DNA of 64,000 nt from Colius striatus (lineage: Eukaryota; Chordata; Aves; Coliiformes; Coliidae), in the NCBI RefSeq assembly GCF_028858725.1, contig NC_084776.1, positions 62,001 through 126,000 of the forward strand, given 5' to 3'. The notes under the pieces were generated by a model, which worked only from the letters and a program-made list of their open reading frames with translations, ran no database searches and had not been told where the DNA came from. The position numbers and the translations under genes are program-made. Numbering within the stretch: position 1 is the stretch's first letter; every line of letters begins with the position of its first letter. This document shows, in pieces, positions 1-64,000 of the stretch.

Positions 1-3000
1 CCACCCCCGTATCCCATCACCCTCCCCGTGTCCCCTCAGCCCCCCCGTGTCCCCTCACCAGCCCCGTGTCCCCTCACCAGCCCCTCAGAAAGCCTTTCTC
101 CCCTCACCACCCCCGTCTCCCCTCACCACCCCCGTGTCCCCTCTCACCCCTCCCGTGTCCCCTCACCACGCCCGTGTCCCCTCACCACCCCCTTCTCCCC
201 TCACCACCCCCTTCTCCCCCCACCACTCCCTTCTCCCCCCACCACCCCCTTCTCCCCTCACCATCCCCTTCTTCCCTCACCAGCCCCGTGTCCCCTCACC
301 ACCCCTTTCTCCCCTCACCATCCCCGTGTCCCCTCACCGCCCCCTTCTCCCCTCACCATCCCAATGTCACCTCACCCCCCCCCGTGTCCCCTCATCATCC
401 CCATGTCCCCACACCGTCCCTTTCTCCCCTCACCGTCACCGTGCCCCCTCTCTGTCCCCTTGTACCCTCACCGTCCCCGTGTCCCCTCACCAGACCCATG
501 TCCCATCACCAGCGCCGTGTCCCCTCACCCCCCCGTGTCCCCTCAGCAACCCCTTCTCCCATCACCATCCCCTTCTCCCCTCACCACCCCCTTCTCCCCC
601 CACCACCCCCGTGTCCCCTCACACCCCCGTGTCCCCTCACCCCCCCCGTGTCCCCACTACCCCCTTCTCCCCTCACCATCCCAATGTCACCTCACCCAAC
701 CCGTGTCCCCTCATCATCCCCATGTCCCCTCACCGTCCCTTTCTCCCCTCACTGTCCCCGTGTCCTTTCACCGTCACCGTGCCCCCTCTCTGTCCCCTTG
801 TACCCTCACCAGCCCCGTGTCCCCTCACCAGCCCCATGTCCCCTCACCACCCCCGTGTCCCCTCACCACCCCCTTGTCCCCTCAGCAACCCCTTCTCCCA
901 TCACCACCCCCTTCTCCCCCCACCACCACCACTCTCCTCACCACCCCCTTCTCCCCTCACCACACCCGGGTCCCATAACCCCCCCGTGTCCCCTCACCAC
1001 CCCCGTGTCCCCTTTCCGTCCCCTTCTCCCCTCACCATAGCCGTGTCCTCTCACCATCGCCGTGTCGTCTCACCGTTGCCATGTCCTCTCACCGTCGCCG
1101 TGCCCCCTCACCGTCCCCGTGTCCCCTCACCCTCCCCGTGTCCCCTCACCACCCCCCATGTCCCCTCACCCCCCCCGTGTCCCCTCCCCAGTCCCATGTC
1201 CCCTCAGAAACCCTTTCTCCCCTCACCACCCCCGTGTCCCCTCACCACCCCCTTCTCTCCTCACCACCCCCGTGTCCCCTTTCCGTCCCCTTTTCCCCTC
1301 ACAATCTCCATGTCCTCTCACGGTCGTCGTGTCCTCTCACCGTCGCCGTGCCCCCTCACCGTCCCCGTGTACCATCACCACCCCCCATGTCCCCTCACCC
1401 CCCCCGTGTCCCCTGACCAGTCCCATATCCCCTCAGAAACCCTTTCTCCCCTCACCACCCCCGTGTCCCCTCACCACCCCCGTGTCCCCTCACCATCCCC
1501 ATCTCCCCTCACCATCCCAATGTCACCTCACCCCCCCCGTGTCCCCTAACCACCCCCGTGTCCCCTTTCCGTCCCCTTCTCCCCTCACCATCGCCGTGTC
1601 CTCTCACCGTCGCCGTGTCCTCTCACCGTCACCGTGCCCCCTCACCGTCCCCGTGTCCCCTCACCTCCCCCATGTCCCCTCACCGTCCCCGTGTCCCCTG
1701 ACCCCCCCATGTATCCCCTCAGAAACCCCTTCTCCCATCACCACCCCCTTCTCCCCTCACCATCCCCGTGTCCCCTTTCCGTCCCCTTCTCCCCTCACCA
1801 TCGCCGTGTCCTCTCACTGTCGCCATGTCCTCTCACCGTCACCGTGCCCCCTCACCGTCCCCGTGTCCCCTCACCTCCCCCATGTCCCCTCACCGTCCCT
1901 GTGTCCCCTGACCCCCCCATGTATCCCCTCAGAAACCCCTTCTCCCATCACCACCCCCTTCTCCCCTCACCCTCCCCGTGTCCCCTCACCTTCCCCTTCT
2001 CCCCTCAACATCCGCTTCTCCCCTCACCACCCCCGTATCCAATCACCCTCCCCGTGTCCCCTCACCAGCCCCATGTCCCCTCACCAGCCCCATCTCCCCT
2101 CAGAAAGCCTTTCTCCCCTCACCACCCCCGTCTCCCCTCACCACCCCCGTGTCCCCTCTCACCCCTCCCGTGTCCCCTCACCACGCCCGTGTCCCCTCAC
2201 CACGCCCGTGTCCCCTCTCACCCCTCCCGTGTCCCCTCACCACGCCCGTGTCCCCTCACCACCCCCGTGTCCCCTCTCACCCCTCCCGTGTCCCCTCACC
2301 ACGCCCGTGTCCCCTCACCACCCGCTTCTCCCCCCACCACCCCCTTCTCCCATCACCACCCCCTTCTCCCCCCACCACCCCCTTCTCCCCCCACCACCCC
2401 CTTCTCCCCTCACCACCCCCACTCTCCTCACCACCCCCTTCTCCCCTCACCACACCCGGGTCCCCTAACCCCCCTGTGCCCCCTCACCACCCCCGTGTCC
2501 CCTCATCATCCCCGTGTCCCCTTTCCGTCCCCTTCTCCCCTCACCATCGCCATGTCCTCTCACCGTCGCCATGTCCTCTCACCGTCGCCGTGCCCATTCA
2601 CCTCCCCCATGTCCCCTCACCGCCCCCGTGTCCCCTGACCCCCCCATGTATCCCCTCAGAAACCCCTTCTCCCATCACCACCCCCTTCTCCCCTCACCAT
2701 CCCCTTTCCTCGTCACCACCCCCGTGTCCCGTCAACACACCTGTGTCCCCTCACCACCCCCGTGTCCCCTCACCATCCCCTTCTCCCCTCACAACCCCAG
2801 TGCCCCCTCACAAGCCCCATGTCCCCTCACCCCCCCCGTGTCCCCTCAGAAACCCCGTCTCCCCTAACCACCCCCTTCTCCCCTCACCACCCCCGTGTCT
2901 CCTCACGACCCTCGTGTCCCCTCACCCGCCCCGTGTCCCCTCACCCCCCCGTGTCCCCTCACCAACCCCTTGTCGCCTCACCTTCCCCTTCTCCCCTCAC

Positions 3001-6000
3001 CATCCCATTCTCTCCTCACCACCCTCGTCTCCCCTCAGAACCCCCGTGTCACCTAACAACCCCCGTGTCCCCTCACACGCCCCGTATCCCCACACCCGCC
3101 CCGTGTCCCCTCACCAGCCCAATGTCCCCTCAGCAACTCCTTCTCCCCTCACCACCCCCTTCTCCCCTCACGACCCCCGTGTCCCCTCATGACCCCCGGG
3201 TTGCCTCACCATCCCCTTCTCCCCTCACCACCCCCGTCTCCCCTCACAACCCCCGTCTCCCCTCACAACCCCCGTGTCCCCTCACCCCCCCCCGTGTCCC
3301 CTCACGCGCCTCGTGTCCCCTCACCACCCCTTTCTCCCCTCACAACCCCCGTGTCCCCTCACCACCCTTGTCTCCCCTCACCATCCCAATTTCCCCTCAC
3401 CCCCCCCGTGTCCCCTCACCAGCCCCGTTTCCCCTCACCACCCCCATGTCCCCTCACCATCCCCTTCTCCCCTCACCATCCCCTTCTTCCCTCACCAGCC
3501 CCGTGTCCCCTCACCCCCCCCGTGTCCCCTCACCCCCCCCGTGTCCCCACTACCCCCTTCTCCCCTCACCATCCCAATGTCACCTCACCCAACCCGTGTC
3601 CCCTCATCATCCCCATGTCCCCTCACCGTCCCTTTCTCCCCTCACCGTCTCCGTGTCCTTTCACCGTCACCGTGCCCCCTCTCTGTCCCCTTGTACCCTC
3701 ACCAGCCCCGTGTCCCCTCACCAGCCCCATGTCCCCTCACCACCCCCGTGTCCCCTCACCAGCCCCGTGTCCCCTCACCAGCCCCGTGTCCCCTCACCAC
3801 CCCCTTGTCCCCTCAGCAACCCCTTCTCCCATCACCACCCCCTTCTCCCCCCACCACCACCACTCTCCTCACCACCCCCTTCTCCCCTCACCACACCCGG
3901 GTCCCATAACCCCCCCGTGTCCCCTCACCACCCCCGTGTCCCCTTTCCGTCCCCTTCTCCCCTCACCATCGCCGTGTCCTCTCACCGTCCCCGTGTCCCC
4001 TCACCGTCCCCGTGTCCCCTCACCACCCCCCATGTCCCCTCATCCCCCCCGTGTCCCCTCACCAGTCCCATGTCCCCTCAGAAACCCTTTCTCCCCTCAC
4101 CACCCCCGTGTCCCCTCACCACCCCCGTGTCCCCTCACCACCCCCTTGTCCCCTTTCCCCCTCACCATCTCCATGTCCTCTCACCGTCGTCGTGTCCTCT
4201 CACCGTCGCCGTGTCCCCTTACCGTCCCCGTGTACCATCACCACCCCCCATGTCCCCTCACCCCCCCCGTGTCCCCTCACCAGTCCCATGTCCCCTCAGA
4301 AACCCTTTCTCCCCTCACTGTCCCCGTGTCCCCTCACCATCCCCATCTCCCCTCACCGTCCCCGTGTCCCCTCACCACCCCCTTCTCCCCTCACCATCCC
4401 AATGTCACCTCACCCCCCCCGTGTCCCCTCACCAGCCCCGTTTCCCCTCACCACCCCCATGTCCCCTCACCATCCCCTTCTCCCCTCACCATCCCCTTCT
4501 CCCCTCACCAACCCCGTGTCCCCTCACCACCCCCTTCTCCCATCACCACCCCCTTCTCCCCCCACCACCCCCTTCTCCCCCTACCACCCCCTTCTCTCCT
4601 CACCACCCCCGTGTCCCCTCACCATCCCCATGTCCCCTCACCATCCCCTTCTCCCTTCACCAGCCCCGTGTCCCCTCACCAGCCCCGTTTCCCCTCACCG
4701 CCCCCTTCTCCCCTCACCATACCAATGTCACCTCACCCCCCCCGTGTCCCCTCATCATGCCCGTGTCCCCTCACCGTCCCTTTCTCCCTTCACCGTCCCT
4801 GTGTCCTCTCACCGTCACCGTGCCCCCTCTCTGTTTCCTTGTACCCTCACCATCCCCATGTCCCCTCACCAGACCCATGTCCCATCACCAGCCCCATGTC
4901 CCCTCACCATCCCCGTGTCCCCTCATCAGCCCCGTGTCCCCTCACCACCCCCCATGTCCCCTCACCACCCCCGTGTCCCCTCATCACCCCCTTCTCCCAT
5001 CACCACCCCCTTCTCCCCCCACCACCCCCACTCTCCTCACCACCCCCTTCTCCCCTCACCCCCCCTGTGTCCCCACTACCCCCTTCTCCCCCCACCACCT
5101 CCACTCTCTTCACCCCCCACGTGTCCCCTCACCCCCCCCGTGTCCCCACTACCCCCTTCTCCCCTCACCATCCCAGTGTCACCTCACCCAACCCGTGTCC
5201 CCTTATCATCCCCGTGTCCCCTCACTGTCCCTTTCCCCCCTCACCGTCCCCGTGTCCTCTCATCGTCACCGTGCCCCCTCTCTGTCCCCTTGTACCCTCA
5301 CCGTCCCCGTGTCCTCTTACCAGACCCATGTCCCATCACCAGCCCCTTCTCCCCTCACCACCCCCGTATCCCCTCACCAGCCCCGTGTCCCCTCACCACC
5401 CCCGTATCCCCTCACCAGCCCCGTGTCCCCTCACCACCCCCGTGTCCCCTCACCACCCCCTTCTACCTCACCCCCCCCCGTGTCCCCTCAGCATCCCCTT
5501 CTCCCCTCACCATCCGCTTCCGCCATCACCACCCCCTTCTCCCCTCACCACCCCCGTCTCCCCTCACCACCCCCGTGTCCCCTCACCATCCCCTTCTCCC
5601 CTCACCATCCCCGTGTCCCCTCAACACACCCTTCTCCCCCCACCACCCCCTTCTCCCCCCACCACACCCACTCTCCTCACCACCCCCTTCTCCCCTCACC
5701 CCCCCGTGTCCCCTCACCACCCCCGTTTCCCCTCACCGCCCCCTTCTCCCCTCACCATCCCAATGTCACCTCACCCAACCCGTGTCCCCTCATCATCCCC
5801 ATGTTCCCTCACCGTCCCCGTGTCCTTTCACCGTCACCGTGCCCCCTCTCTGTCCCCTTGTACCCTCACCGTCCCCGTGTCCCCTCACCAGCCCCATGTC
5901 CCATCACCAGCCCATTCTCTCCTCACCACCCCCGTGTTCCCTCACCAGCCCCGTGTCCCCTCACCACCCCCGTGTCCCCTCAGCAACCCCTTCTCCCATC

Positions 6001-6950
6001 ACCACCCCCACTCTCCTCACCACCCCCTTCTCCCCTCACCACACCCGGGTCCCCTAACCCCCCCGTGTCCCCTCACCACCCCCTTTTCCCCTCACCATCT
6101 CCATGTCCTCTCACTGTCGTCGTGTCCTCTCACCGTCCCCGTGTCCCATCACCACCCCCCATGTCCCCTCAGAAACCCTTTCTCCCCTCACCATCCCCGT
6201 GTCCCCTCACCACCCCCGTGTCCCCTCACCACCCCCTTCTACCTCACCCCCCCTGTGTCCCCTCAGCATCCCCTTCTCCCCTCACCATCCCCTTCTTCCC
6301 TCACCACCCCCGTGTCCCCTCACTAGCCCCATGTCCCCTCAGAAACCCCTTCTCCCCTCACCACCCCCTTCTCCCCCAACCACCTCCTTCTCTCCTCAGC
6401 CCCCCCAACCCTAACCCTCACCCCCCCGTGTCCCCTCACCCCCCCCCATGTCCCCTCATCATCCCCTTCTCCCCTCACCGTCGCCGTGTCCTCTCACCGT
6501 TGCCGTGCCCCCTCACCATCCCCATGTCCCCTCACCCCCCCCCGTATCCCTTCACCATCCCCTTCTCCCCTCACCACCCCCGTGTCCCCTCACCATCACC
6601 TTCTCCCCTCACCATCCCCGTGTCCCCTCACCAGCCCCTTCTCCCCTCACCAGCTCTGTGTCCCCTCACCATCCTCTTCTCCCCTCACCACACCTGTTTC
6701 CCCTCAACAGCCCGGTGCCCACACCATGCCCCACACCATCCCTATGCCCACACTGTGCCCCACACCATCCCTGTGCCCACACCGTGTCCCCTCACCATCC
6801 CTGTGCCCTCACCATTGTGTGCCCTCACCATCCCCTTCTCCCCTCACCATCCCCGTGTCCCCTCACCATCCCCTTCTCCCCTCACCATCCCCTTCTCCCG
6901 TCACCATCCCCTTCTCCCCTCACCATCCCCATGTCCCCCCCCATCGTGTC
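1..6950. repeat. C-rich 19-bp minisatellite array 1, copy A
   Basis: The unit is about 19 bp, typically CCACCCCCGTGTCCCCTCA, with common variants in which GTGTC becomes TTCTC or ATGTC and CACCA becomes CACCG or CAGAAA. The + strand is almost free of G outside GTG and CCG. Because 19 is not divisible by 3, the frames are permuted copies of one 57-nt (19-residue) super-period with few stops, which explains the long Pro/Ser/His-rich open frames; I do not regard these as proteins. The array runs up to the acceptor of the GPT exon at 6996. A slightly different 29-30-bp subunit (CCCTGTGCCCACACCG type) appears at about 6711-6830. It most likely lies in a GPT intron. Confidence 0.93.
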
Positions 6951-6995
6951 CCTATCCCCCCGTCGCCCCCCATCATGCCATGCCTGTGCCCTCAG

Positions 6996-7239
6996 ACCAT
7001 CCTGAAGCTGCTGGTGATGGGCTCGGCACCCTCTCGCACGCGGGTGCTGATCCCCATCCCGCAGTACCCGCTGTACTCGGCCACCATCGCCGAGCTGGGG
7101 GCCGTGCAGGTCGGCTACTACCTGGAGGAGGAACGGTGCTGCGCAGTGGCGCTCAGCGAGCTGCGGCGGGCACTGGCCGAGGTCCGCCGGCACTGCTGCC
7201 CACGGGTGCTGTGCATCATCAACTCCGGCAGCCCCACCG
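6996..7239 (+). CDS. GPT: GPT (alanine aminotransferase) internal exon, copy A
   Basis: Alanine aminotransferase is a PLP enzyme that interconverts alanine + 2-oxoglutarate and pyruvate + glutamate. This 244-nt exon encodes 81 codons plus one base, from TILKLLVMG through [14 protein letters not shown] and [13 protein letters not shown] to CIINSGSPT(G). The [11 protein letters not shown] block and the ELGAVQV-YYL-EER block are diagnostic for GPT/GPT2. The acceptor is a pyrimidine-rich tract ending CCCTCAG at 6995; the donor is GT at 7240. The phase (G|GG) matches the exon at 20248. Odd point: the family motif NPGNPTG reads NSGSPTG, so the Asn that contacts the PLP ring hydroxyl is Ser. The frame is open. 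Upstream exons would lie left of the window; 13 kb of array separates this exon from the next. GPT versus GPT2 is chosen from synteny with LRRC14 and C8orf82. Confidence 0.88.
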
Positions 7240-9414
7240 GTACCCGGCCACACCACGGGCTGAGACGGGACCCCAGGAGTGGGATGGATCCCCAGGGGTG
7301 GGATGGGATGGGACTCCAGGGGGGGGGTGGGACCCCAGGGGTGGGATGGGATGGGACCCCAGGGGTGGGATGGGACTGGATGGGACCCCAGGGGTGGGAT
7401 GGGATGGCACGGGACCCCAGGGGTGGGATGGGATGGCACGGGACCCCAGTGGTGGGATGAGTCCCCAGAGGTGGGATGGGATGGGACTCCAGGGGTGGGA
7501 TGGGACCCCAGGGGTGGGATGGGACTGGATCGGATCCCAGGGTTGGGATGGGATGGGACCCCAGGGGTGGGATGGGATGGCATGGGACCCCAGTGGTGGG
7601 ATGAGTCCCCAGAGGTGGGATGGGATGGGACCCCAGGGGTGGGATGGGATGGGACAGGATGGGATGGGAACCCAGGGGTGGGATGAGTCCCCAGGGGTGG
7701 GATGGGATGGGACCCCAGGGCTGGGATGGGACCCCAGGGATGGGATGGGATTGAATGGGATGGGATGGGACTGGATGGGACCCCAGGGCTGGGATGGGAC
7801 CCCAGGGGTGGGACCTCAGGGGTTGGATGGGATAGGACTGGGATGGGACTCCAGTGGTGGGATGACACTGGGATGGGACCCCAGGGGTGGGATGGGACCC
7901 TGAGGTTGGGATGGGACCCCAGGGATGGGACGCCAGGGGTGGGATGGAATGGAATGGGATGGGACCCCAGGGGTGGGATCGAATGGGATTGGATGGTACT
8001 GGATGGGACCCCAGGGTTCGGATGTAATGGGACCCCAGGAGTGGAACCTCAGATGTGGGATGGGATAGGACTGGGATGGGACTCCAGGGGTGGGATGAGA
8101 CTGGGATGGGACCCCAGGGGTGGGATGCGACCCCAGGGGTGGGAACCAGGGGTGGGATGGGACCCTGAGGTTCGGATGGGACCCCAGGGATGGGAATTCA
8201 GGGGTGGGATGGGACCCCAGGGTTGGGATGGGATGGGACCCCAGGGGTGGGATGAGTCCCCAGGGGTGGGATGGGACCCCAGGGGTGGGATGGGACTGGA
8301 TGGGACCCCAGGGGTGGGATGGGACCCCAGGGGTGGGATGGGATGGGATGGAACTGGATGGGACCACAGGGTTGGGACTGGATGGGACCCCAGGGGTGGA
8401 ACTGAATGGGACCGCAGGGGTGGGATGGGATGGGACCCCAGGGGTGAGATGGGATGGGACCCCAGGGGTGGGATGAGTCCCCAGGGGTGAGGTGGGATGG
8501 GACCCCAGGGGTGGGATGGGACCCAAGGGGTGGGATGGGATGGGACCCAAGGGGTGGGATGGGATGGGATGGGATGGAATGGGACCCCAGGGGTGGGATG
8601 AGTCCCCAGGGGTGGGATGGGACCCAAGAGGTGGGACGGGATGGGACCCCAGGTGTGGGATGGGATGGGCTGGGATGGGATGGGATGGGATGGGACCCCA
8701 GGGGTGGGCTGAGTCCCCAGGGGTGGGATGGGATGGGATGGGACCCCAGGGGTGGGATGGGATGTGACCCCAGGGGTGGGATGGGATGGAATGGCATGGA
8801 TTGGGACTGGATGAGACCCCAGGGCTGGGATGGGATGGAACCCCAGGGGTGGCATGGGATAGGACTGGGATGGGACTCCAAGGGTGCGATGACACTGGGA
8901 TGGGACCCCAGGGGTGGGATGCGACTGCAGGGGTGGGACCCCAGGGGTGGGATGGGACCCTGAGGTTGGGATGGGACCCCAGGGCTGGGACTTGAGGGGT
9001 GGGATGGGACTCCAGGGTTGGGATGGGACTGGATGGGATCCCAGGGGTGGGATGGGATGGGACCCCAGGGATGGGGTGGGATGGGACCCCAGGGATGGGG
9101 TGGGATGGGACCCCAGGGATGGGGTGGGATGGGACTGGATAGGACCCCAGGGGTGGGATGGGATGGGACCCAAGGGGTGGGACAAGTCCTCAGTGGTGTA
9201 ATAGGATGGGACCCCAGGGGTGGGATGGGACCTCAGGGGTGGGGTGGGATGGAATGGGATGGGACCCAAGGGGTGGGATGGGACCCCAGGGGTGGGATGG
9301 GATGGGGCCCCAGGGGTGGGATGGGACCCCAGGGTTGGGATAGGACCCCAGGATTGGAATGTGATGGGATGGGACTGGATTGGACCCCAGGGTTGGGATG
9401 GGATGGGAACCCAG

Positions 9415-9540
9415 GCGTGGGATGGGATGGGATGGGATGGAATGGGATGGGATGGGATGGGATGGGATGGAATGGGATGGGATGGAATGGGATGGGATGG
9501 GATGGGATGGGATGGGATGGGATGGGATGGGATGGGACCC
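9415..9540. repeat. Pentanucleotide (GGGAT)n expansion inside array 2
   Basis: About 24 nearly uninterrupted ATGGG/ATGGA pentamers, without the GGACCCCAGGGG part of the 19-bp unit. Shorter runs occur near 11985-12030 in copy A and 53143-53195 in copy B. The corresponding place in copy B, around 51580-51610, has only a few pentamers, so this run differs between copies. Confidence 0.9.
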
Positions 9541-9950
9541 CAGGGGTGGGGTGAGTCCCCAGGGGTGGGATGGGACCCAAGGGGTGGGATGGGATGGGAT
9601 CCCAGGGGTGGGATGGGACTGGATGGGACCCCAGGGCTGGGATGGGATGGGACCCCAGAGAATGGGACCCCAGGGGTGGGATGGGATAGGACTGGGATGG
9701 GACTCCAGGGGTGGGATGACACTGGGATGGGACCCCAGGGGTGGGACTTCAGGGGTGGGATGGGACCCCAGGGGTGGGATGGGACTGGATGGGACCCCAG
9801 GAGTGGGATGGGACCCCAGGGGTGGGATGGGACGCGATGGTACCCCAGGAGTGGGATGGGACCCCAGGGGTGGGATGGGATGGGATTGGATGGGACCCCA
9901 GGGTTGGGACGGGATGAGACGCCAAGGGTGGGACCTCAGGACTGGGATGG

Positions 9951-51500: not shown

Positions 51501-54500
51501 CCCCAGGGTTGGAATGTGATGGGATGGGACTGGATTGGACCCCAGGGTTGGGATGGGATGGGAACCCAGGCGTGGGATGGGATGGGATGGGATGCGATGG
51601 GATGGGACGGGACCCCAGGGGTGGGGTGAGACCCCAGGGGTGGGGTGAGTCCCCAGGGGTGGGGTGAGTCCCCAGGGGTGGGATGGGACCCAAGGGGTGG
51701 GATGGGACCCAAGGGGTGGGATGGGATGGGATCCCAGGGGTGGGATGGGATGGGATGGGATGGGACCCCAGGGATGGGGTGGGACTGGATGGGACCCCAG
51801 GGCTGGGATGGGATGGGACCCCAGAGAATGGGACCCCAGGGGTGGGATGGGATAGGACTGGGATGGGACTCCAGGGGTGGGATGACACTGGGATGGGACC
51901 CCAGGGGTGGGACTTCAGGGGTGGGATGGGACCCCAGGTTTGGGATGGGACTGGATGGGACCCCAGGGGTGGGATGGGACCCCAGGGATGGGGTGGGATG
52001 GGACCCCACGTTTGGGATGGGATGGGACTGGTTAGGACCCAAGGGGTGGGATGGGATGGGACCCAAGGGATGGGATGAGTCTCAAGGGGTGGGATGGGAC
52101 TCCAGGGGTGGGATGGGTCCCCAGGGGTGGGATGGGATGCGACCCCAGGGGTGGGATGGGACTCGATGGGACCCCAGGGTTAGGATGGGATAGGACCCCA
52201 GGGGTGGGATCTCAGGGGTGGGATGGGATAGGACTGGGATGGGACTCCAGGGGTGGGACTTCAGGGGTGGGATGGGATGGGACCCCAAGGGTGGCGATGG
52301 GACCCCAGGGGTGGGATGGGACCCAAGGGGTGGGATGGGATGGGACGGGATGGGACCCCAGGGGTGGGATGGGACTGGATGGGACCCCAGGGGTTAGGTG
52401 GGATGGGACTGGATGGGACCCCAGGGGTTAGGTGGGATGGGACTGGATGGGACCCCAGGGGTGGGGTGGGATGGGACCCCAGGGGTGGGACGGGATAGGA
52501 GTGGGATGGGACTCCAGGGTTGGGATGAGACTGGGATGGGACCCCAGGGGTGGGATGGGACCCTGAGGTTTGGATGGGACACTGAGGTTTGGATGGGACC
52601 CAAGGGATGGAACTTCAGGGGTGGGATGGGATGGGACCCCAGGGGTGGGATGGGACCCAAGGGGTGGGATGGGATGGGACTGGATGGGACCCCAGGGGTG
52701 GGATGCGACCCCAAGGGTGGGAACCAGGGGTGGGATGGGACCCTGAGGTTGGGATGGGACCCCAGGGATGGGAATTCAGGGGTGGGATGGGACCCCAGGG
52801 TTGGGATGGGATGGGACCCCAGGGTTGGGATGGGATGGGACTGGATGGGATCCCAGGGTTGAGATGAGATGGGACCCCAGGGGTGGGATGGGATGGGACC
52901 CCAGGGGTGGGATGGGACCCCAGGGTTGGGATGGGACCCCAGGGGTGGGATGGGATGGGACTGGATGGGACCCCAGGGTTGGGATGGGGCCCCAGGGGTG
53001 GGATGGGATGGGACCCCAGGGGTGGGATGGGACCCCAGGGGTGGGACCTCAGGAGTGGGATGGGATAGGACTGGGATGGGAATCCAGGGGTGGGATGAGA
53101 CTGGGATGGGACCCCAGGGGTGGGATGGGACCCCAGGGGTGGGATGGGATGGGATGGGATGGGATGGGATGGGATGGGATGGGATGGGATGGGACCCCAG
53201 GGGTGGGATGGCATGGGACTGGATGGGACCCCAGGGTTGGGATGTGATGGGACCCCAGGGGTGGGATGGGTCCCCAGGGGTGGGATGGGACCCCAGGGCT
53301 GGGATGGGACCCCAGGGCTGGGATGGGATGGGACACCACGGGTGGGATGGGATGGGATTGGATGGGACTGGATGGGACCCCAGGGTTGGGATGGGACCCC
53401 AGAGGTGGGATGAGTCCCCAGGGGTGGGATGGGACTGGAAGGGACCCCAGGGTTGGGATGGGACCACAGGGGAGGGATGGGATGGGATGGGACCCCAGGG
53501 GTGGGATGAGTCCCTAGGGGTGGGATGCGAGGGGATGGGATGGGACCCCAGGGGTGGGATGGGACTGGATGGGACCCCAGGGTTGGGATGGGACCCCATG
53601 GGTGGGATGAGATGGGATGTGATGATACCTCAGGGGTGGGACTGGATGGGACCCCAGGGGTGGGATGGGACTGGATGGGACTCCAGGGGTGGGATGGGAT
53701 GGAATGCGATGGGACCGCAGGGGTGGGATGAGTCCCCAGGGGTGGGATGGGACGTCAGGGGTGGGATGGGACCCCAGGGGTGGGATGGAATGGGATTGGA
53801 TGGGACTGGATGGGACCCCATGGTTGGGATGGGACCCCAGGGGTGGAACCCCAGAGGTGGGATGGGACCCTGAGGTTGGGATGGGACCCCAGGGGTGGGA
53901 TGGGACCCCAGGGCTGGGATGGGATGGGACCCCAGGGCTGGGATGGGAGGGGATGGAATGGGACCCCAGGGCTGGGGTGGGACCCCAGGGCTGGGATGGG
54001 ATGGGACACCACGGGTGGGATGGGATGGGATTGGATGGGACTGGATGGGACCCCAGGGTTGGGATGGGACCCCAGAGGTGGGATGAGTCCCCAGGGGTGG
54101 GATGGGACCCCAGGGGTGGGATGGGACCTCAGGGGTGGGATGGGACCTCAGGAGTGGGATGGGATGGGACCCCAGGGGTGGGATGGGACCCCAGGGGTGG
54201 GATTGGATGGTAGTGGATGGGACCCAGGGTTGGAATGGGATGGGACCCCAGGGGTGGGATGGGTCCCTAGGGGTGGGATGGGATGGGACCCCAGGGGTGG
54301 GATGGGACTCCAGGGGTGAGATGGGATGGGACCCAGGGGTGGGATGGGACCCCAGGGGTGGGATGAGTCTTCAGGGATGGGATGGGATGGGACCCCAGGG
54401 GTGGGATGGGACCCCATGGGTGGGACCTCAGGAGTGGGATGGGATAGGACTGGGATGGGAATCCAGGGGTGGGATGAGACTGGGATGGGACCCCAGGGGT

Positions 54501-55340
54501 GGGATGCGACCCTGAGGTTGGGATGGGACCCCAGGGATAGGACTTCAGGGGTGGGATGGGTCTCCAGGGTTGGGATGGGATGGCACCCCAGGGGTGGGAT
54601 GGGATGGCACCCCAGGGGTGGGATGGGTCTCCAGGGTTGGGATGGGACCCCAGGGGTGGGATGAGTCCACAGGGATGGGATGGGATGGGATTGGATGGGA
54701 CTGGATGGGACCCCAGGGGTGGGATGGGACCCCAGGGGTGGGATGGGACCCCAGGGGTGGGATGGGATGGGTGGGATGGGATCCCAGGGATGGGATGGGA
54801 CCCCAGGGGTGGGATTTGACCCCAGGGGTGGGATGGGATGGGACTGGCTGGGACCCCAGGGTTGGGATGGGATGGGACCCCAGGGGTGGAATGGAATGGG
54901 ATTGGATGGGACTGGATGGGACCCCAGGGTTGGGATGGGATGGGTCCCCAGGGGTAGGACCTCAGGGGTGGGATGGGATAGGACTGGGATGGGACTCCAG
55001 GGGTGGGATAAGACTGGGATGGGACCCCAGGGGTGGATGCGACCCCAGGGGTGGGACCACAGGGGTGGGATGGGACCCTCAGTATGGGATGGGACCCCAG
55101 GGGTGGGATGGGACCCCAGGGGTGGGATCGGATGGGACTGGGATGGGACCTCAGGGATGGGATGGGACTCCAGGGGTGGGATCTCAGGGATGGGATGGTA
55201 TCCTGGGACTGGGATGGGACCCTGGGGATGGGATGGGACTGGGAAGGGATCAGACTCCAGGGATAGGACCCTGGGAATAAGATGGGACTCTGAAATTGGG
55301 ATGGGACTCTGGGGTGGGATGGGACTGGGAAAGGACTGGA
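48546..55340. repeat. G-rich 19-bp minisatellite array 2, copy B
   Basis: Same unit as copy A. The beginning (48546-50000) and end (about 53.9-55.3 kb) follow copy A closely. The middle lacks the inverted block and most of the 3.1-kb and 0.96-kb higher-order units, so the exon-to-exon distance is 5,370 bp shorter. A clean (GGGAT)n run of about ten units is at 53143-53195. Confidence 0.92.
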
Positions 55341-56168
55341 CTCCAGGGATAGGACCCTGGGAGAGTGATGGGACATCAGGGTTGGTCTGGGACCCCAGGG
55401 CTGATCTGGAGACCCCTGATCTGAGCCCCCAAATTTGGAGCTGAGACCTTGAGTTTGAAGCTGGGATCCCTGGGCTGAGACTCCTCCTGAACCAGGACCC
55501 CAAAACTGTTTTTGTGGCACCATCACTGCTCTGGGACCTCAGGGCTGGGACCCCTGGACTGGGACCTTAAGTTTGAAGTTTGAGACCCCACGACTGGGAC
55601 ATAGGGCTGGACTGGGAGCCCCCAATACCCTTCTGGTACCAGGGCTGTGAGCTCCCAATGCCCTCCCAGTCCCATTCTGAGACCCCCAGTGCTTTACTGG
55701 TCCTACTAGGACCTCCAAAACATACCCAAGAACTGGGTTGAGACCCTCCAAAAGCCATAGGAAGTGGGACTGAGTCCCCTCAAATCCATTAGGAGTGGGG
55801 TGAAGGCCCCAAAACCCATCAGGAGCAGGGGCTAAGCCCCCCCAAACCCATCAGGAGTGGGGATGACTCTCCTCCCAAATCTATAGGGAGGCAGGTTGGG
55901 TCCCCCAAACCTATCAGGAGAGGGGGTCTAAGCCCCCCCATACCCATGGGAAACTAGACTGAGTCCCCTAAAACCCATCAGGAGTGGGGCTGAGCCCATA
56001 CCCCAAACCCATAGGGAGCAAGACTGGGCCCCCAAACCTATCAGGAAAAGGGATTGAGCCCCCCAAAACCCATCAGGAGCAGGACTGGGCCCCCCAAACC
56101 CATGGTGGGAGTGGGACTGGACCCCCCCACTTCGCTATGCCAACCTCCCCCCTTCTCCCCCCTCCCAG
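55341..56168. other. GPT intron, copy B, with 30-bp array
   Basis: Copy of 19421-20247 at a spacing of 35,921 bp, including the 30-bp CCCATCAGGAG array at about 55760-56110 and the CCCTCCCAG acceptor. Confidence 0.7.
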
Positions 56169-56248
56169 GGCAGGTCCAGAGCCGTCAGTGCATTGAGGCC
56201 GTCATCAAATTCGCCTTCGAGGAGAGGCTCTTCCTCATGGCTGACGCG
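56169..56248 (+). CDS. GPT: GPT internal exon, copy B (PLP-aspartate region)
   Basis: Identical by eye to 20248-20327, encoding QVQSRQCIEAVIKFAFEERL to FLMADA with the same Glu-to-Ala difference after the PLP Asp. Splice sites are intact. Confidence 0.87.
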
Positions 56249-56331
56249 GTGAGTGGGACCCTCAGACTCGGGGGGTATGTGAGGTGGACCCCAACATCTA
56301 GGTAACCCCACCAGTTTCCCCCCTCCTCCAG

Positions 56332-56468
56332 GTGTACCAGGACAACGTGTATGCTGAGGGTTCGGCCTTCCACTCCTTCAGGAAGGTGCTGACAGAGATG
56401 GGGCCGCCCTACCTGGACTCGGTGGAACTCGCCTCCTTCCACTCCATCTCCAAAGGCTTCACGGGCGA
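56332..56468 (+). CDS. GPT: GPT internal exon, copy B (Schiff-base lysine region)
   Basis: Identical by eye to 20411-20547, with VYQDNVY and SISKGF (Schiff-base Lys) retained and a GTGAGT donor. The following exons are missing here too. Confidence 0.87.
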
Positions 56469-56560
56469 GTGAGTGACCTCCCACGGCCACCCCCACCCCG
56501 AGGTGGCCACCACAGGTCCTGGGGAGCCACAGAGTGGGGATGAGGATGGTGGAACCCCAT

Positions 56561-56861
56561 GGGCCTCAAGGGTGGTGATGGAAAGAGGCTGGAGGTCCCG
56601 TGGGGTTGGGATGGTGATGCCGTGGTCCTCTGGAGCCTATGGGATGGGGATGGTGATGCCATGGTCCTCTGGAGCCTGTGGGGTGGGGATGGTGATGCCA
56701 TGGTCCTGTGGAGCCCACGGGGTGCGGATGGTGATGCCATGGTTCTGTGGAGCCCACAGGGTGGGGATGGTGATGCCATGGTCCTGTGGAGCCCACGGGG
56801 TGCGGATGGTGATGCCATGGTCCTCTGGAGCCTATGGGATGGGGATGGTGATGCACAAAGA
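56561..56861. repeat. 39-bp minisatellite, copy B
   Basis: Same number and order of units as 20640-20940; this array has not changed between the copies. Confidence 0.9.
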
Positions 56862-56876
56862 GCCCCCGTGGGGATG

Positions 56877-56882
56877 TTTATT
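56877..56882 (-). terminator. Poly(A) signal AATAAA for the F-type lectin, copy B
   Basis: TTTATT on the + strand, about 100 bp beyond the lectin stop codon, as in copy A. Confidence 0.55.
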
Positions 56883-56981
56883 AGGGTGGTTCTGACGACA
56901 GGGAGCCTCCAGGGGCATCTGATGTCAGAGGGTCCTGGTGCCAGGGGGGAAACTCCTCACCTTGTCCCCCTTAAAAGCCCC

Positions 56982-57135
56982 TCATGGCTCGGGGTGGACA
57001 GTGTAGACCTCGACCTCACAGAGAGTGAACTGCTCCTCCCGGACCAGGATGGTGACGGTGACGTAGCGGCCGCGGAGGCCGTGGCAGCAGATGGTGCTGA
57101 GCGACCCAGGACTGGCATCTGTGATGATGCCACAG
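56982..57135 (-). CDS. F-type lectin (fucolectin) terminal exon, copy B
   Basis: Same 154-nt exon as 21061-21214 (CGIITDASPG, RGRYVTV, TLCEVEVY, TGA) with the same acceptor. It is again isolated: a CR1 and the 30-bp array lie upstream on the minus strand and no further lectin exon is visible. Confidence 0.73.
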
Positions 57136-57153
57136 CTGCAGGGAGCAAACCAC

Positions 57154-57466
57154 AGAATCATTTGGGTTAGAAAAGCCCTTTGAGCTGCTGGAGCCCAGCC
57201 CTGAGCCCTCACCCTGCCACGGCTACCACTGACCCACAGCCCTCAGCACCTCAGCTCCAGGGCTTCGGGGTCCCTCCAGGGCTGGGCACTCCCCCAGCTC
57301 CCGGGCAGCCTGGCACAGGGGCTGACACCCCTCTCAGGGAAACAGGTCTGCCTCAGCTCCAGCCTCAACCTCCCCTGGGGCACCCTGAACCCCTTTCCTC
57401 TTGGCCCGTCACTCACTAGCTGGGAGCAGAGACCGACCTCCAGCTCACTGCAGCTTCCTGGTAGAG
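57154..57466 (-). mobile_element. CR1 LINE 3' fragment, copy B (first)
   Basis: Same element and truncation point as 21233-21545, so it was present before the duplication or assembly doubling. Confidence 0.87.
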
Positions 57467-57470
57467 ATTT

Positions 57471-60400
57471 CACCACCAAAACCCCAATATTCTATCTTTT
57501 TGTCCAAACACCACCACAAAAACACTACTTTTTTTTCCCTCAAATCACCTCCCCAATTTTCCCCTCAGAACTCCACCAAAATCCCACTTTTTCCCCCTTA
57601 AAACTCCACTAAACCCCAACATTTCCCTTCAAAACTCACAAAAAGCTCACTTTTCCCCTCAAAACTACACCAAAGCCCAACTTTTTTGTCAGAACCCCAC
57701 CAAAGCACCACTTTTCCCCTCAACACTCCACAAAAACCCATCTTCCCCTCAGAACCCCATCAAAAACCCACTTTTGCCCTCAAATATCCACCAACCCCCC
57801 ACTTTTTCACTCCAAACTCCACTAAAACCACACTTGTCATCTGAAAACACCAACAAAACTCCACTTTTCCCCTCAAAGCTCCCCCAAAATCCCACTGGTG
57901 CCTCAGAACCCCACCAATCTGCATCTTTTCCAACTCAGCAGAACTCCAACGCCCCTCTTTTCTCCTTAAAACTCTACAAAAAACCCTTTTTCTCCTCAGA
58001 ATCCCACAAAAAACCCACTTTTGCCCTCAAAAATCCACCAAATCTCCACTTTTTCACTCCAAGGTCCACTAAAACCACACTTTTCCCCTCAACACTCCAC
58101 CAAAACTCCACTTTTCATCTGAAAACTCCACCAAAACTGCATTTTTCATCTTAAAACCCCACCAAAACCCCACTTTTCCCCTTAAAACTCCACAAAAACT
58201 CATTTTCCTTTCAGTGGACCACCAAACCCTCTCTTTTTTCCCTCAGAACCACAAGACACCCCGCTTTTGCCCCAAATATCCACCAAACCCACACTTTACC
58301 ACTCCAAAGTCCACAAAATCCCACATTTGCCCTTAAAAATACACCAAACCCACACTTTTAATCTAAAAACCCCACCAAAACTCCACTTTTCCCCTCAAAG
58401 CTCCTCCAAAATCCCACTTGTTCCTCTTAAGTCCACCAAATCCCCACTTTTCTTCTCAAACCTCCGCTTTTCCACTTAAAACTCCACAAAAAAATCCATT
58501 TTCCCCCTCAGAATCCCATCAAAAATCCACTTTCGCCCTCAAAAACCCATTGAACCTCCAATTTTCACTCCAAGCTCCACCAAAACCCCACTTTTTCCCT
58601 CAACACTCCACCAAAACTTCACTTTCCCCCTCAAAGCTCCTCCTAATTCCCACTTGTTCCTCAGAAGTCCACAAATCCCCCACTTTTGCCCTCAAAACTC
58701 TGCCAAAACCCAGTTTTCCTCTCAAGACTACACCACAATCCCACTTTCTCCCCACAACACCATCAAAACCCAATTCTTTCCTCTCAGAATCTCACCAAAA
58801 CCCCACTTTTGCCCTCAACACTCCACCAGAACCTTACTTTTCCCCTTAAAACCCCAGAAAAACTCATTTTCACCTCAGATCCACACCAAAACCCTACTTT
58901 TACTCTCAAAAATTCATCAAATCCCCACTTTTTCACTCCAAACTCCACTAAAACCCCTGTTCTTCTCAACACTCCACAAAACCCCCACTTTTTCACTCCA
59001 AACTCCAGTAAAACCCACTGTTCTTCTCAACACTCCACAAAAAAACCCACTTTTCATCTGAAAACTCCACCAAAACTCCACTTTTCCCCTCAGAACCCCA
59101 TCAAAAACCCACTTTCGCCCTCAAAACCCCACTGAACCTCCACCTTTCCACTACAGACTCCACCAAACCCCCACTTTTCCCCTAATAACCCCACCAATCT
59201 CCACTTTTCTCCGTCAGCAGACAACCAACCCCACTCTTTTCTCCTTAAAACTCTACAAAAACCTTTATTCCCCTCAGAACCCCACAAAAAAAAACACTTT
59301 TCCCCTCAAAACTCCACCAAATCCCCACTTTTCATTTGAAAACTCCAGTAAAACCCACTGTTGCCCTCAAAACTCTGCCAAAACCCATTTTTCCTCTCAG
59401 AACCACACCAAAAACTTACTTTTACCCTCAAAAATCCTCCAAATCGCCACTTTTTCACTCAGAACTCCACTAAAACCCCTTTTCTTCTCAACACTCCACA
59501 AAATCCCCACTTTTCCCCTCAAAACTCCACCAAACCCCCACTTTTCTCCTCCAAGCTCCTCCAAATTCCCACTTGCTCCTCAGAAATTCACAAACCCCCG
59601 ACTTTTCCTCTCAAAACTCCACCAAAACTCCACTTTTCCCCTCAGAATCCCATCAAAAACCCACTTTTGCCCTCAAAACCCCACCGAACCTCCACTTTTC
59701 CACTCCAGACTCCACCAAGCCCGCGCTTTTCCCCTCAGAACCCCACCAATCTCCACTGTTCCCCCTCACCAGACAACCAATCCCACTCTTTTCTTCTTAA
59801 AACTCCACCAAAACCCATTTTTCCCCTCAGAACCACACCAAAAACCTTTACCCTCAAAAATTCACCAAATCGCCACTTTTTCACTCCAAACTCCACTAAA
59901 ACCCCTTTTCCCCTCAACACTCCACCAAAACCCCACTTTTCCCCTCAGAACCCCATCAAAAACCCACTTTCGCTCTGAAAACCCACTGAACCTCCACCTT
60001 TCCACTCCAGACTCCACCAAACCCCCACTTTTCCCCTCAGAACCCCACAAATCTCCACTTTTCCCCCTCACCAGACAACCAACCCCACTCTTTTCTCCTT
60101 AAAGCTCTACAAAAACCTTTATTCCCCTCAGAACCCCACAAAAAAACACTTTTCCCCTCAACACTCCACCAAACCCCCACTTTCCCCCTCAAAACTGCAC
60201 CAAACCCCCACTTTTCCCCTCAAAACTCCAGTAAAACCCCCTGTTCTTCTCAACACTCCACCAAAACCCCACTTTTCCCCTCCAAGCTCCTCCAAATTCC
60301 CACTTGTTCCTCAGAAATTCACAAACCCCCCACTTTTCCTCTCAAAACTCCACTTTTCCCCTCAGAACCCCATCAAAACCCCACTTTCGCCCTCAAAACC

Positions 60401-60476
60401 CCACCGAACCTCCACTTTTCCACTGCAGACTCCGCCAAGCCCGCGCTTTTCCCCTCAGAACCCCGCCAGTCTCCAG
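57471..60476. repeat. 30-31-bp A/C/T-rich minisatellite, copy B
   Basis: Follows copy A unit by unit up to about 59,130, then diverges through several block insertions and deletions; net length +70 bp. It ends in a C homopolymer of about 16 before the promoter (about 18 in copy A). Confidence 0.9.
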
Positions 60477-60550
60477 TTCCCCCTCAGCAGACCGCGCCCC
60501 CACTATTCCCCCCCCCCCCCCCCCAACCTGCAGAGACGCCAGTGCAGGGC

Positions 60551-60795
60551 TGCCAACGCGCTGAGCCTCAGATCGAACTTCCCGCTGCCGCCGCCCTTCA
60601 GCCAATAAGAAGGGAGGAAGCGATGACAGACACGGCGCAGCCAATGGGCGGGCGAGGATGGCAGGCGGCACCTAGTAACGACGCCGGGCCCGCCTTCCGT
60701 GGTGAAACTCTCGCTCTGATTGGCGGAGGGGCGGTGCCGGGGTGCAGTGCGCATGCCTGGAAGCGCGGCCGTGAAGGATCCGGCGGGAGCGGAAG
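60551..60795 (+). promoter_or_regulatory. CpG promoter and first-exon donor, copy B
   Basis: CCAAT at 60602-60606 and 60641-60645, ATTGG at 60719-60723, the NRF1-like TGCGCATGCC at 60748-60757, and the donor GTGAGC at 60796. One visible difference from copy A is GTGCAGTGCG for GTGTAGTGCG just before the NRF1-like site. Confidence 0.68.
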
Positions 60796-61870
60796 GTGAG
60801 CTGAGGGGGGGCCCGGGGATTGGGGGGGTGAGGGCAGCTGAGGGGGACCCCGGGGATTGGGGGGGCGTGAGGGCAGCTGAGGGGGACCCCGGGGATTGGG
60901 GGGCGTGAGGGTAGCTGAGGGGGACCCCGGGGATTGAGCGGGCGTGAGGGCAGCTGAGGAGTCCTCGGGGATTGGGGGGACGTGAGGGCAGCTGAGGGGG
61001 ACCCCGGGGATTGGGGGGGTGAGGGCAGCTGAGGGGGACCCCGGGGATTGGGGGCGTGAGGGCAGCTGAGGGGGACCCCGGGGATTGGGGGGCGTGAGGG
61101 TAGCTGAGGGGTCCTCGGGGATTGGGGGGGTGAGGGCAGCTGAAGGGTCCCCGGGGATTGGGGGGGGTGAGGGCAGCTGAGGGGTCACCGGGGATTGGGG
61201 GGGGTGAGGGCAGGTGAGGGGTCACCGGGGATTGGGGGGGGTGAGGGCAGCTGAGGGGTCACCGGGGATTGGGGGGGGTGAGGGCAGGTGAGGGGTCACC
61301 GGGGATTCGGGGGCGTGAGGGCAGCTGAGGGGTCCCCGGGGACTGGGGGGCGTGAGGGTAGCTGAGGGGGACCCCGGGGATTGGGGGGGTGAGGGCAGCT
61401 GAGGGGGACCCCGGGGATTGGGGGGGTGAGGGCAGCTGAGGGGTCACCGGGGATTGGGGGCGTGAGGGTAGCTGAGGGGGACCCCGGGGATTGGGGGGCG
61501 TGAGGGTAGCTGAGGGGGACCCCGGGGATTGGGGGGGGTGAGGGCAGCTGAGGGGTCACCGGGGATTGGGGGCGTGAGGGCAGCTGAGGGGTCCCCGGGG
61601 ACTGGGGGGCGTGAGGGCAGCTGAGGGGGACCCCGGGGATTGGGGGGCGTGAGGGCAGCTGAGGGGGACCCCGGGGATTGGGGGGTTGAGGGCAGATGAA
61701 GGGGACCTCGGGGATTGGGGGATGTGAGGGCAGCTGAGGGAGACCCCAGGGATTAGGGGGTTGAGGGCAGATGAAGGGGACCCCGGGGATTGGGGGGGGT
61801 GAGGGCAGCTGAAGGGGACCCCGGGGATTGGGGGGGGTGAGGGCAGCTGAGGGGGGTCGAGGGGTGTGAG
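60796..61870. repeat. 37-38-bp G-rich VNTR, copy B
   Basis: Same unit as 24805-26570 but about 640 bp (roughly 17 units) shorter, with some private variant units near 61680-61800 (GGTTGAGGGCAGATGAAGGG). Confidence 0.92.
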
Positions 61871-61974
61871 GGCAGCACAGGGGGGCCCAGGGAGGGAAGG
61901 GGGGTGTTGGAGATCCTGCTGTAGGGTTCCTTTATGGGGTGCTGGGGGTACCCCTCATTAAGAGGGGTGGGTCA

Positions 61975-62298
61975 TGGGTCCTGCCCTGGGGTTCCCTATT
62001 GATGGGGAGCTGGGTTAGGAGTGCTATAGGGTGCCCTATTAATGGGGGATAGGGTTAGGAGTGCTATGGGATGTCCTATTGAGAGAGGGCTGGGTTAGGG
62101 GTACCCTATTGATGAGGTGCAGATCTAGGGGTGCTGTGGGGTGCCCTATTGATGGGGGGCTGGATTAGAGGTGCTATAGGATGCCCTATAGATAGAGAGC
62201 TGGGTTAGGGGTGCTCTAAGATGCCCTATTGATGGGGGCTGGCTTAGGGGTGCTATAGGATGCCCTATTGATGGGGGCTGGCTTAGGGGTGCCCTATT
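61975..62298. repeat. 40-bp minisatellite abutting LRRC14, copy B
   Basis: As in 26630-26945, with one extra unit just before LRRC14 (GGTGCTATAGGATGCCCTAT repeated). Confidence 0.88.
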
Positions 62299-62819
62299 GC
62301 TACGCGCCTATTGCTGCGCGCCGCCCTCCGCTCACCCTGCGCCCCCCTGCACCTGCTCTGCCGCGACTTCCACGCCGAGGAGCTCTCCGTCTCCACCGTC
62401 GTCTCCCTGCTGGACTCCCTGGAGCCTGCCGCCGTCCGCAGAGTTGTTTTACGCTTCAACAACCTGGGGCTGGCGGGGCTGTGCGCAGTGCTGCCTCACC
62501 TCAGCCGCTTCCCCGCGCTGCGCAGCCTCAAGCTGCCCTACAGCAACGTGGACGTGCGCCGCACGGCCCCCGGCACGGACGCCGGCATCCGCTGCTTGGC
62601 CGCTCACCTCCGGGCCCTGCCTGCCCTCAAGGAACTCGATTTGTACTCCTCCAGGCTTTCTGGGAGACTCAGGCAGCTCCTGGGGTAAGCTGCCCGCTGG
62701 GGGAGGGACCCCAAAACCTTCACACGCTGCAGCGGGAGCTGTGCCGGCTGCTGGCGAGTGCGGGTAGAGCAGACGCCGTGTGGGCGACCAGCCTCCAGCG
62801 CTACGGAGCCATCGACTAG
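62299..62819 (+). pseudogene. LRRC14: LRRC14, partial and frameshifted, copy B
   Basis: The same two out-of-register pieces as at 26946-27466, with the same internal deletion junction, so the damage predates or is shared by both copies. Substitutions visible relative to copy A include CGCCTGCTC to CACCTGCTC (Arg to His in APLRLL), CTCGCCCTG to CTCACCCTG, and GCGAGCGCG to GCGAGTGCG. The missing parts (N-terminal ~195 residues, central ~150 residues of LRRs) are not found elsewhere in the window. Confidence 0.78.
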
Positions 62820-62908
62820 TTCAGCTTGTAGCATCCCCCCCCCAGGGAAGCTTCACCTCGGGGCGCTGTGCCGGGCTCTGGGCTGTGCCACTCGGTTATG
62901 GTGAGTTC

Positions 62909-62914
62909 ATTAAA
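62909..62914 (+). terminator. Poly(A) signal ATTAAA for LRRC14, copy B
   Basis: Same context, TTCATTAAAGCC, as in copy A. Confidence 0.58.
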
Positions 62915-63065
62915 GCCAACCCCACCTTGCCCGATTAACCCAAGTCCTCCTGGGATGCTTGGCAGGAGGAAGTGGCAGAGCTCAGCGGAGGGGATGGAGC
63001 TCTTCTGCTTTTAATGGACCAAGGAGAGAGCTGGCTGCTGTTCTGGCACACAGGGCACTGACCAG

Positions 63066-63438
63066 AGAATCATTACAGATGGAAAAGCCCTTTGAGCTGC
63101 TGGAGTCCAACCCTGACCCCACAGTGCCACAGCCACCACTGAGCCACGGCCCTCAAGCACCTCAGCCCCACGGCTCTGGGACCCCTCCAGGGCTGGGCAC
63201 TCCCCCAGCTCCCTGGGCAGCCTGGCACAGGGGCTGACACCCCTCTCAGGGAAACAGTTCTGCCTCAGCTCCAGCCTCAACCTCCCCTGGGGCACCCTGA
63301 GCCCCTTTCCTCTTGGCCTGTAGCTTTTAACTTGGCAGCAGAGACCGACCCTCTCAGCCACAGCCAGGGAGTCAGAGTGATCAGATCTCCTCTGAGCCTC
63401 ATTCTCTGCAGACTGAACCTTTGCCTCAGGTACCCTCA
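63066..63438 (-). mobile_element. CR1 LINE 3' fragment, copy B (second)
   Basis: Same insertion as 27713-28085, differing by single substitutions such as CCTCGTTCTC to CCTCATTCTC. Confidence 0.87.
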
Positions 63439-63447
63439 TTTAGCCCA

Positions 63448-63993
63448 GAGCTTCCCAGTGCATCTTCTCCTCTCCCTGCAGCCCCTCAGTGTCCCTGTGG
63501 CAGTGAGTGAGGGGGCCCAGCACTGAGCACAGCCCTGGAGCTGCAGCCCCTCAGTGTCCCTGTGGCAGTGAGTGAGGGGCCCAGCACTGACACAGCCCTG
63601 GAGCTGCAGCCTCCCCAGGGCCCAGCACAGGGGACAATCCCTGCCCTGGGGCTGCTGCCACCCCACTGCTGAGCCCAGCCAGGCTGCCACTGGCCTTCTT
63701 GCCCCCTTGGGCACTCTGCTGGCTCCTTGCCCTCGGGCAACCTCAGCCCATGGCCACATCCCTCTGAAGAACCTCCCTTCCCTCTACACACCAGCCAACA
63801 TCACCACAGTGGCACCCACAGTGTGGCAGCAACACTGTCAGCGTGGCAGCACCCATGGGGACACCCACACTGTGGCAGTAGCACCATGTCACCCACCACA
63901 GCTGCACCAACCTCACCATAGCAGCACCAACCTCTCCACAGCTGCACCCACACTGCTGCAGTGGCACCCATCACCTCTAGGCTCATTTCAATT
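63448..63993. repeat. Short tandem duplications 3' of LRRC14, copy B
   Basis: Copy of 28095-28640, with a few differences near 63885 (GCACCATGTCACC in place of GCACTGTGTGTCACC). The window ends at the point equivalent to about position 28650, just before the C8orf82 poly(A) signal. Confidence 0.65.
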
Positions 63994-64000
63994 GCCAGAG

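Follow-up and report, generated by a model that had tools for sequence, protein, structure and literature searches.

The two near-identical halves of the 64-kb stretch of DNA analysed here (the window; copies A and B) are very probably units 2 and 3 of a three-unit subtelomeric tandem array on the chromosome-sized contig C23, and members of a family of about 60 units that is found with a single polarity at 23 known contig ends and carries remnants of GPT, an F-type lectin gene, LRRC14, and C8orf82. We put the probability of this reading at roughly nine in ten. The original prediction had weighed a young two-copy duplication against joined haplotypes, and both options miss the third copy upstream and the dozens elsewhere. 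The tandem duplication proved real in all tests run, while the haplotype-join artefact is not supported, given three copies on this end, the lack of any N, the telomere at the contig start, and about 57 further C8orf82 loci.

The window corresponds to C23:62,001–126,000, near the (CCCTAA)n telomere, and the contig itself starts with 7.5 kb of the CCCTAA telomere repeat. Three tandem units were mapped on C23, at 42.4, 82.2, and 118.2 kb, with A and B as units 2 and 3. Unit 1 ends at C23:55199, which would place the left edge of unit 2 some 6.8 kb before the window starts, and unit 3 extends about 5 kb past the right edge. There is no N within the window or in the whole of C23:1–133847 (the first is at 133,848), hence no gap between the copies.

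Shared 32-mers occurring exactly twice in the window define four collinear direct repeats, at 6901–7412 (offset +41291), 18864–22573 (+35921), 24517–24898 (+35991), and 26909–28531 (+35353). These bear out the claim that each landmark has a second copy in the same orientation, at offsets of 41,291, 35,921, 35,991, and 35,353. The four stretches, mostly outside arrays, differ between A and B by 12 substitutions and 5 indels in 5,243 aligned columns, a divergence of 0.23% over mostly non-array columns, and four of the 12 substitutions lie at one repeat edge near 28534–28604; 19300–21640 has no substitution in 2,341 columns. The divergence is patchy, with 3 differences in 5,158 columns in the middle, 15 in 2,564 on the left, and 7 in 2,333 on the right; this pattern fits alleles and paralogues equally. 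By a hand count from the difference lists, 22 of 27 A–B differences are transitions. Because they are mostly transitions, they are taken as real mutations and not read errors, and an error-driven duplication was rejected on this ground. The transition excess says nothing on whether A and B are alleles or paralogues. We also considered whether B leans towards decayed bases, since all 5 of 5 CpG transitions in one block pointed that way, but the overall count of 12 vs 11 led us to reject it.

Copy A (1..32919) and copy B (32920..64000), both on the forward strand, were assigned as parts of units 2 and 3 from the C23 landmark map and, for B, the left edge of the array. Forward-strand features of A begin with a 19-bp minisatellite array (1..6938) that continues left of the window. 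It precedes GPT exon a (6996..7239), which reads NSGSPT where unit 1 of C23 has NPGNPT. A 12.05-kb GGGAT/GGGACCCCAGGGGT minisatellite array (7267..19318) is followed by GPT exon b (20248..20327) and exon c (20411..20547); SKG is retained, and the ADE of a solved relative is ADA at the b/c junction. The last exon of the F-type lectin gene (21061..21214) is on the reverse strand, with an acceptor read from the sequence. Next, on the forward strand, are the CCCCACTTTTCCCC minisatellite (21630..24475), a 1.74-kb, 37-bp minisatellite (24808..26542) that starts at a splice-donor-like GTGAG, and the LRRC14-like remnant (26934..27466). Exons 3 (28820..29341) and 2 (30976..31020) of C8orf82, a DUF4505 gene, lie on the reverse strand, and a unique GC-rich unit end (32286..32900, no strand assigned) is found in all three C23 units. 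A 30-bp and then a 19-bp minisatellite (32920..48229) link A to B, where, again on the forward strand, GPT exon a (48287..48530), a 6.68-kb GGGAT array (48558..55239), exons b (56169..56248) and c (56332..56468), and the LRRC14-like remnant (62287..62819) recur. The second C8orf82 predicted just right of the window was found at C23:126169–126690, with exon 2 at 128705, and the landmarks checked include the three GPT exons, the lectin exon, the DUF4505 exon, and the two repeats.

The three alanine-aminotransferase exons match residues 168–321 of alanine aminotransferase 2 (E = 9.4e-66); by gene order, they would be GPT rather than GPT2. They do not make a functional GPT, as exons were found for residues 168–321 only and both A and B have NSGSPT in place of the NPGNPTG motif. 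Six motifs of other GPT exons are absent from C23:1–186000. The lectin exon matches FBP32 (E = 1.7e-12) and has no Pfam match. Copy A matches DUF4505 (E = 7.9e-60), which we take to be C8orf82. A motif expected in C8orf82 exon 1 is absent from C23:1–186000, although an exon this short could escape detection; likewise, no row of the genome-wide DUF4505 search covers profile positions 1–37, where a short exon 1 could be missed. The similarity of the LRRC14 piece is leucine-rich-repeat-like only, and its name is the one presumed by the earlier reader. Two dispersed repeats, 88% alike, are presumably CR1. Human gene order would allow an ARHGAP39 3′ end at 32.3–32.9 kb, which we do not claim.

The genome-wide DUF4505 search gave 63 rows (124 of 124 candidates scored), and merging three split pairs leaves 60 C8orf82 loci, 57 of them distributed over 17 large contigs (23 ends) and 3 on two small contigs. 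The LRRC14 piece has 61 loci (116 of 116 candidates scored), and a GPT–lectin probe has at least 38 full-length matches at 92–100% identity, including three 100% matches on C23 (40 of 3,369 candidates scored). On large contigs, every C8orf82 locus (57) and every LRRC14 locus (58) is at most 240 kb from a contig end. Polarity relative to that end is uniform in both sets (57 of 57 and 58 of 58, respectively): the GPT piece reads away from the end and the C8orf82 piece towards it. The spacing from one C8orf82 to the next is 29.7–53.9 kb (n = 35). Two to five units are carried by 16 of the 23 ends, with five in a row at the start of C13, and unit number and spacing vary from end to end. Telomere repeats are present at 15 of the 23 unit-bearing ends; at the other 8, the few hundred bases read per end showed none. 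Of the 23 ends, 16 carry an element, X, outside the units. Exceptions to the overall arrangement are GPT exon a with X, reversed, at C15:320–366 kb, X internal to C7 at 40.6 Mb, and X with GPT exon a about 0.27–0.29 Mb from the end of C24. The unit-bearing large contigs measure 12.9–122.6 Mb, so the units are not on small dot chromosomes, as judged by size only. Up to 3 of the 60 loci may be double-counted, since C42 and C45, both small, could represent alternate haplotypes of the C8 ends. As judged from the assembly, single units could still be false copies.

These counts bear directly on the idea that A and B represent a single locus, its two alleles having been joined within one contig. The 0.23% divergence and the large differences in minisatellite length are what two haplotypes could present, and PMC9516828 documents false duplications in the assemblies of zebra finch and hummingbird. 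On the dot chromosomes of the chicken, heterozygosity for intron length is common (PMC12954441). The likeness to the cases in PMC9516828 is that of near-identical blocks on one scaffold; here, however, the blocks have no gap, more than two copies, and one polarity at many ends. Joined haplotypes should yield at most two copies, one each, whereas C23 has three units and the start of C13 has five. A gap between the copies, typical though not obligatory, is absent from C23:1–133847, and 60 loci of one polarity are spread over the genome. We therefore regard this explanation as improbable.

The copies of C8orf82 exon 3 (522 sites, 54 copies) differ on average at 2.28 sites within an end (50 pairs) vs 5.66 between ends (1,381 pairs), and 0 of 1000 label shuffles gave a within-end value as low. 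There are 39 distinct sequences among the 54 copies, grouping by end. With 29 nonsynonymous and 9 synonymous changes (pN/pS 1.21, 54 of 60 copies), the exon looks to be evolving neutrally, with no signature of purifying selection, and one stop is common to six copies on C3 and C6. Exon 3 is identical at the start of C14, the end of C18, and the start of C24, which would fit exchange between ends. Identity between ends is about 99% over this exon, and this, with the few copies that are identical across ends and the N-padding of several contig starts, could suggest an assembly-wide artefact in which scaffolding placed a single genuine array on many chromosome ends. Such an artefact is very improbable, given 39 distinct sequences clustered by end, telomere repeats and X at many unit-bearing ends, and unit numbers and spacings that differ per end. 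A very young tandem duplication confined to a single locus, which A and B on their own resemble, is the least probable of all, given the third C23 unit and the dozens of units elsewhere, short of an assembly that is wrong throughout.

How might the family of subtelomeric units have arisen? A piece of an old GPT–LRRC14–C8orf82 gene block would have been copied between chromosome ends by a polarity-keeping exchange, such as ectopic recombination, translocation, or break-induced copying. Unequal exchange, perhaps mediated by the GC-rich minisatellites, would then have multiplied and homogenised it at each end, with the gene pieces as passengers. A broader proposal, to which we give slightly less than even odds, is that a syntenic gene block captured by chromosome ends became this lineage's shared subtelomeric repeat, is homogenised by ongoing interchromosomal exchange, and that the intact ancestral genes were lost from the genome. 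The loss is suggested because the genome-wide searches for LRRC14 and C8orf82 (all 116 and 124 candidates scored) gave no close copy outside the contig-end regions. For GPT, a protein search of the genome (150 of 293 candidates scored) gave, among the matches listed, one moderate-identity hit (62%) far from an end, at C16:9571981, perhaps the paralogue GPT2. A whole-genome aminotransferase (PF00155) search, with 9 of 40 candidates scored, has no bearing on an intact GPT.

Subtelomeric duplication families are a known kind of system; our literature searches found no description of this unit. Vertebrate subtelomeric segmental duplications, in birds and mammals, show an interchromosomal bias near chromosome ends (PMC13431229). 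The present family is like them in its high identity and in blocks common to many ends, but its 30–54 kb gene-block unit is also tandem on 16 of 23 ends (up to five units), and the window is 82% array. PO41, a 41-bp repeat, and the Z-macrosatellite are avian subtelomeric tandem repeats (PMC4301066). Ours is likewise a subtelomeric tandem family in a bird; unlike the 41-bp PO41 as described there, its unit is exon-bearing and tens of kilobases long. GC-rich introns full of minisatellites of varying length recall the sequence stuttering of dot chromosomes (PMC12954441), whereas here the contigs are of 12.9–122.6 Mb and the gene pieces are broken.

A suspected assembly error has thus become a genome-wide feature, with 60 loci of a 30–54 kb unit at 23 known chromosome ends and a total of about 2.5 Mb, as estimated from the median spacing. 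The units are natural markers of exchange between chromosome ends, and show how genes that are elusive in birds may survive as subtelomeric fragments. They also warn that haplotype or depth filters could purge real subtelomeric units by mistake.

Tandem arrays make up 82% of the window. The GGGAT array is 12,052 bp in A vs 6,682 bp in B, the 37-bp minisatellite 1,735 vs 1,057 bp, and one array pair is near-equal (2,846 vs 2,803 bp). Minisatellite introns change length fast, and most of the difference in length between A and B would come from them. Alleles that differ in their VNTRs need not be invoked, because minisatellites differ between units elsewhere too. The 30-bp motif, counted in the 32920..48229 array, occurs at the two edges but is absent from the core, which favours neither alleles nor paralogues. 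In a check for exon sequence expanded into the intron arrays, as in dot-chromosome stuttering, probes spanning the GPT exon a acceptor and the first LRRC14 donor score above 100 of 100 shuffles in the arrays; their exon-only parts are matched by 12 and 72 of 100 shuffles, and an intron-only probe by 10 of 100.

The copies A (1..32919) and B (32920..64000) of the window are the second and third of three units on C23, the large contig that contains it (at C23:62001-126000), in an assembly of 1.21 Gb and 191 contigs. CR1-like elements, gene content, and genome size suggest that this is a bird genome. C23 opens with 7.5 kb of CCCTAA, and exons b and c of GPT lie at 42.4, 82.2, and 118.2 kb. Within the window, the original prediction of two collinear direct copies was borne out exactly, offsets included, and the further C8orf82 copy that it placed to the right of the window was found at C23:126169. 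Only one run of N interrupts C23:1-186000: 82 N at 133,848-133,929, some 2.8 kb into the last unit. In four mostly non-array stretches, 12 of 5,243 aligned columns differ between A and B, together with 5 indels. Tandem arrays (array score ≥150) make up 82% of the window and, as had been proposed for the minisatellites, hold most of the A/B length differences (12.05 vs. 6.68 kb and 1.74 vs. 1.06 kb).

The window alone leaves alleles and young paralogues on an equal footing, since both fit a divergence of 0.23%. The length pattern of the minisatellites does not separate the two either, because intron length on chicken dot chromosomes is often heterozygous within individuals (PMC12954441). Bird assemblies are known to contain false duplications, usually with a gap between the copies (PMC9516828). 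A and B have no gap between them, which is only a hint against false duplication.

The exons in the window match alanine aminotransferase 2, residues 168-321, which we take to be GPT. The piece called LRRC14 has leucine-rich-repeat-like similarity and is presumably that gene, and we assume that the DUF4505 match in the window represents C8orf82. The last exon of the lectin matches FBP32 (E 1.7e-12) and has a weak match to an eel-type lectin entry (E 0.059); F-type lectins have been reported in birds (PMC5712786). The gene content of A and B appears to be fragmentary, because motifs of other GPT exons and of exon 1 of C8orf82 are absent from C23:1-186000. GPT exon a reads NSGSPT in A and B, and the first C23 unit has two copies with NPGNPT. 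Some units contain this exon several times, for example 4 times within 11 kb on C6 (C6:32792-43583); its copies there and elsewhere are separated by about 3-4 kb and resemble a higher-order repeat that includes an exon. Minisatellite sequence resembles window positions 6974-7014 and 24793-24832, which span a splice acceptor and a donor site, respectively, with 0 of 100 shuffles as high in each case; the exon-only parts show no such resemblance. Separately, an aminotransferase match at C34:28495-29010 covers 141 profile positions with one TAG, is long for a vertebrate exon, and is possibly foreign sequence.

A 1.4 kb GPT-lectin probe gave at least 38 full-length rows with 92-100% identity and 4 partial ones, a lower bound with 40 of 3,369 candidates scored. 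The DUF4505 search, with 124 of 124 candidates scored, gave 63 rows, or 60 C8orf82 loci after merging three split pairs. Fifty-seven of these lie at 23 ends of 17 large contigs, and two small contigs have the remaining 3. For the LRRC14 piece, 61 loci were found, of which 58 lie at those 23 ends and 3 on the small contigs, besides a single 26% match at C6:1956411. On the large contigs, none of the C8orf82 and LRRC14 loci is more than 238 kb from the end, and their orientation relative to it is identical (57/57 for C8orf82, 58/58 for LRRC14). Each end carries 1-5 C8orf82 loci (at least two at 16 of the 23), spaced by 29.7-53.9 kb (n = 35). Fifteen of the 23 unit-bearing ends show telomere repeats, namely the starts of C3, C7, C8, C11, C12, C13, C23, and C40 and the ends of C3, C8, C14, C15, C17, C19, and C39. 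None was seen in the short stretches examined at the starts of C6, C14, and C24 and the ends of C6, C12, C13, C16, and C18. The small contigs, C45 and C42, are 52.6 and 57.5 kb long; the C42 copy of C8orf82 shows the same split match as the C8 end, and both contigs are possibly alternate haplotypes remaining in the assembly.

We suggest that the unit may have been transferred between chromosome ends with its polarity kept, and that it would then have been amplified locally and homogenised on each end. Near chromosome ends, duplication between chromosomes is a described class in birds and mammals (PMC13431229), and subtelomeric tandem repeats are reported from chicken and quail (PMC4301066). 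No description of this unit was found among open-licence PubMed Central papers.

Exon 3 of C8orf82 was obtained from 55 of 60 loci, and 54 were analysed, one with an insertion being left out. Two copies from the same end or small contig differ on average at 2.28 of 522 sites (50 pairs), and two from different ones at 5.66 (1,381 pairs); 0 of 1,000 label shuffles gave a within-end mean as low as that observed. Nine of the between-end pairs are identical, with one sequence common to the C14 start, C18 end, and C24 start and another to C45 and the C8 start. The 54 copies show 29 nonsynonymous and 9 synonymous changes (pN/pS 1.21), and thus no sign of selection for the C8orf82 protein. One nonsynonymous change is a stop common to six copies on C3 and C6; the other 48 of 54 copies lack an internal stop, consistent with a recent spread. 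By row count, 44 of 61 LRRC14 loci match as two pieces in different frames; the three C23 loci do not.

A second subtelomeric element, X, sits between the telomere and the units on C23 (C23:10207-23160). With 27 of 63 candidates scored, X was found outside the units at 96-99% identity at 15 further ends, a total of 16 of the 23 unit-bearing ends. A more diverged X lies on the inner side of the array on C23 (95%), C7 (94%), C16 (93%), and C15 (92%); the C23 one, at C23:135274-142979, ranges over 79-96% identity. The pattern extends beyond the 23 ends, since X also occurs near the ends of C25 and C26, where no unit was found, inside C7 at 40.6 Mb, near the end of C24 (0.27 Mb from it), and, together with GPT exon a, at C15:320471-366615. 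These C15 pieces, which lie some 0.3 Mb in from the start of the contig, have the opposite orientation to the subtelomeric rule and perhaps reflect an old inversion.
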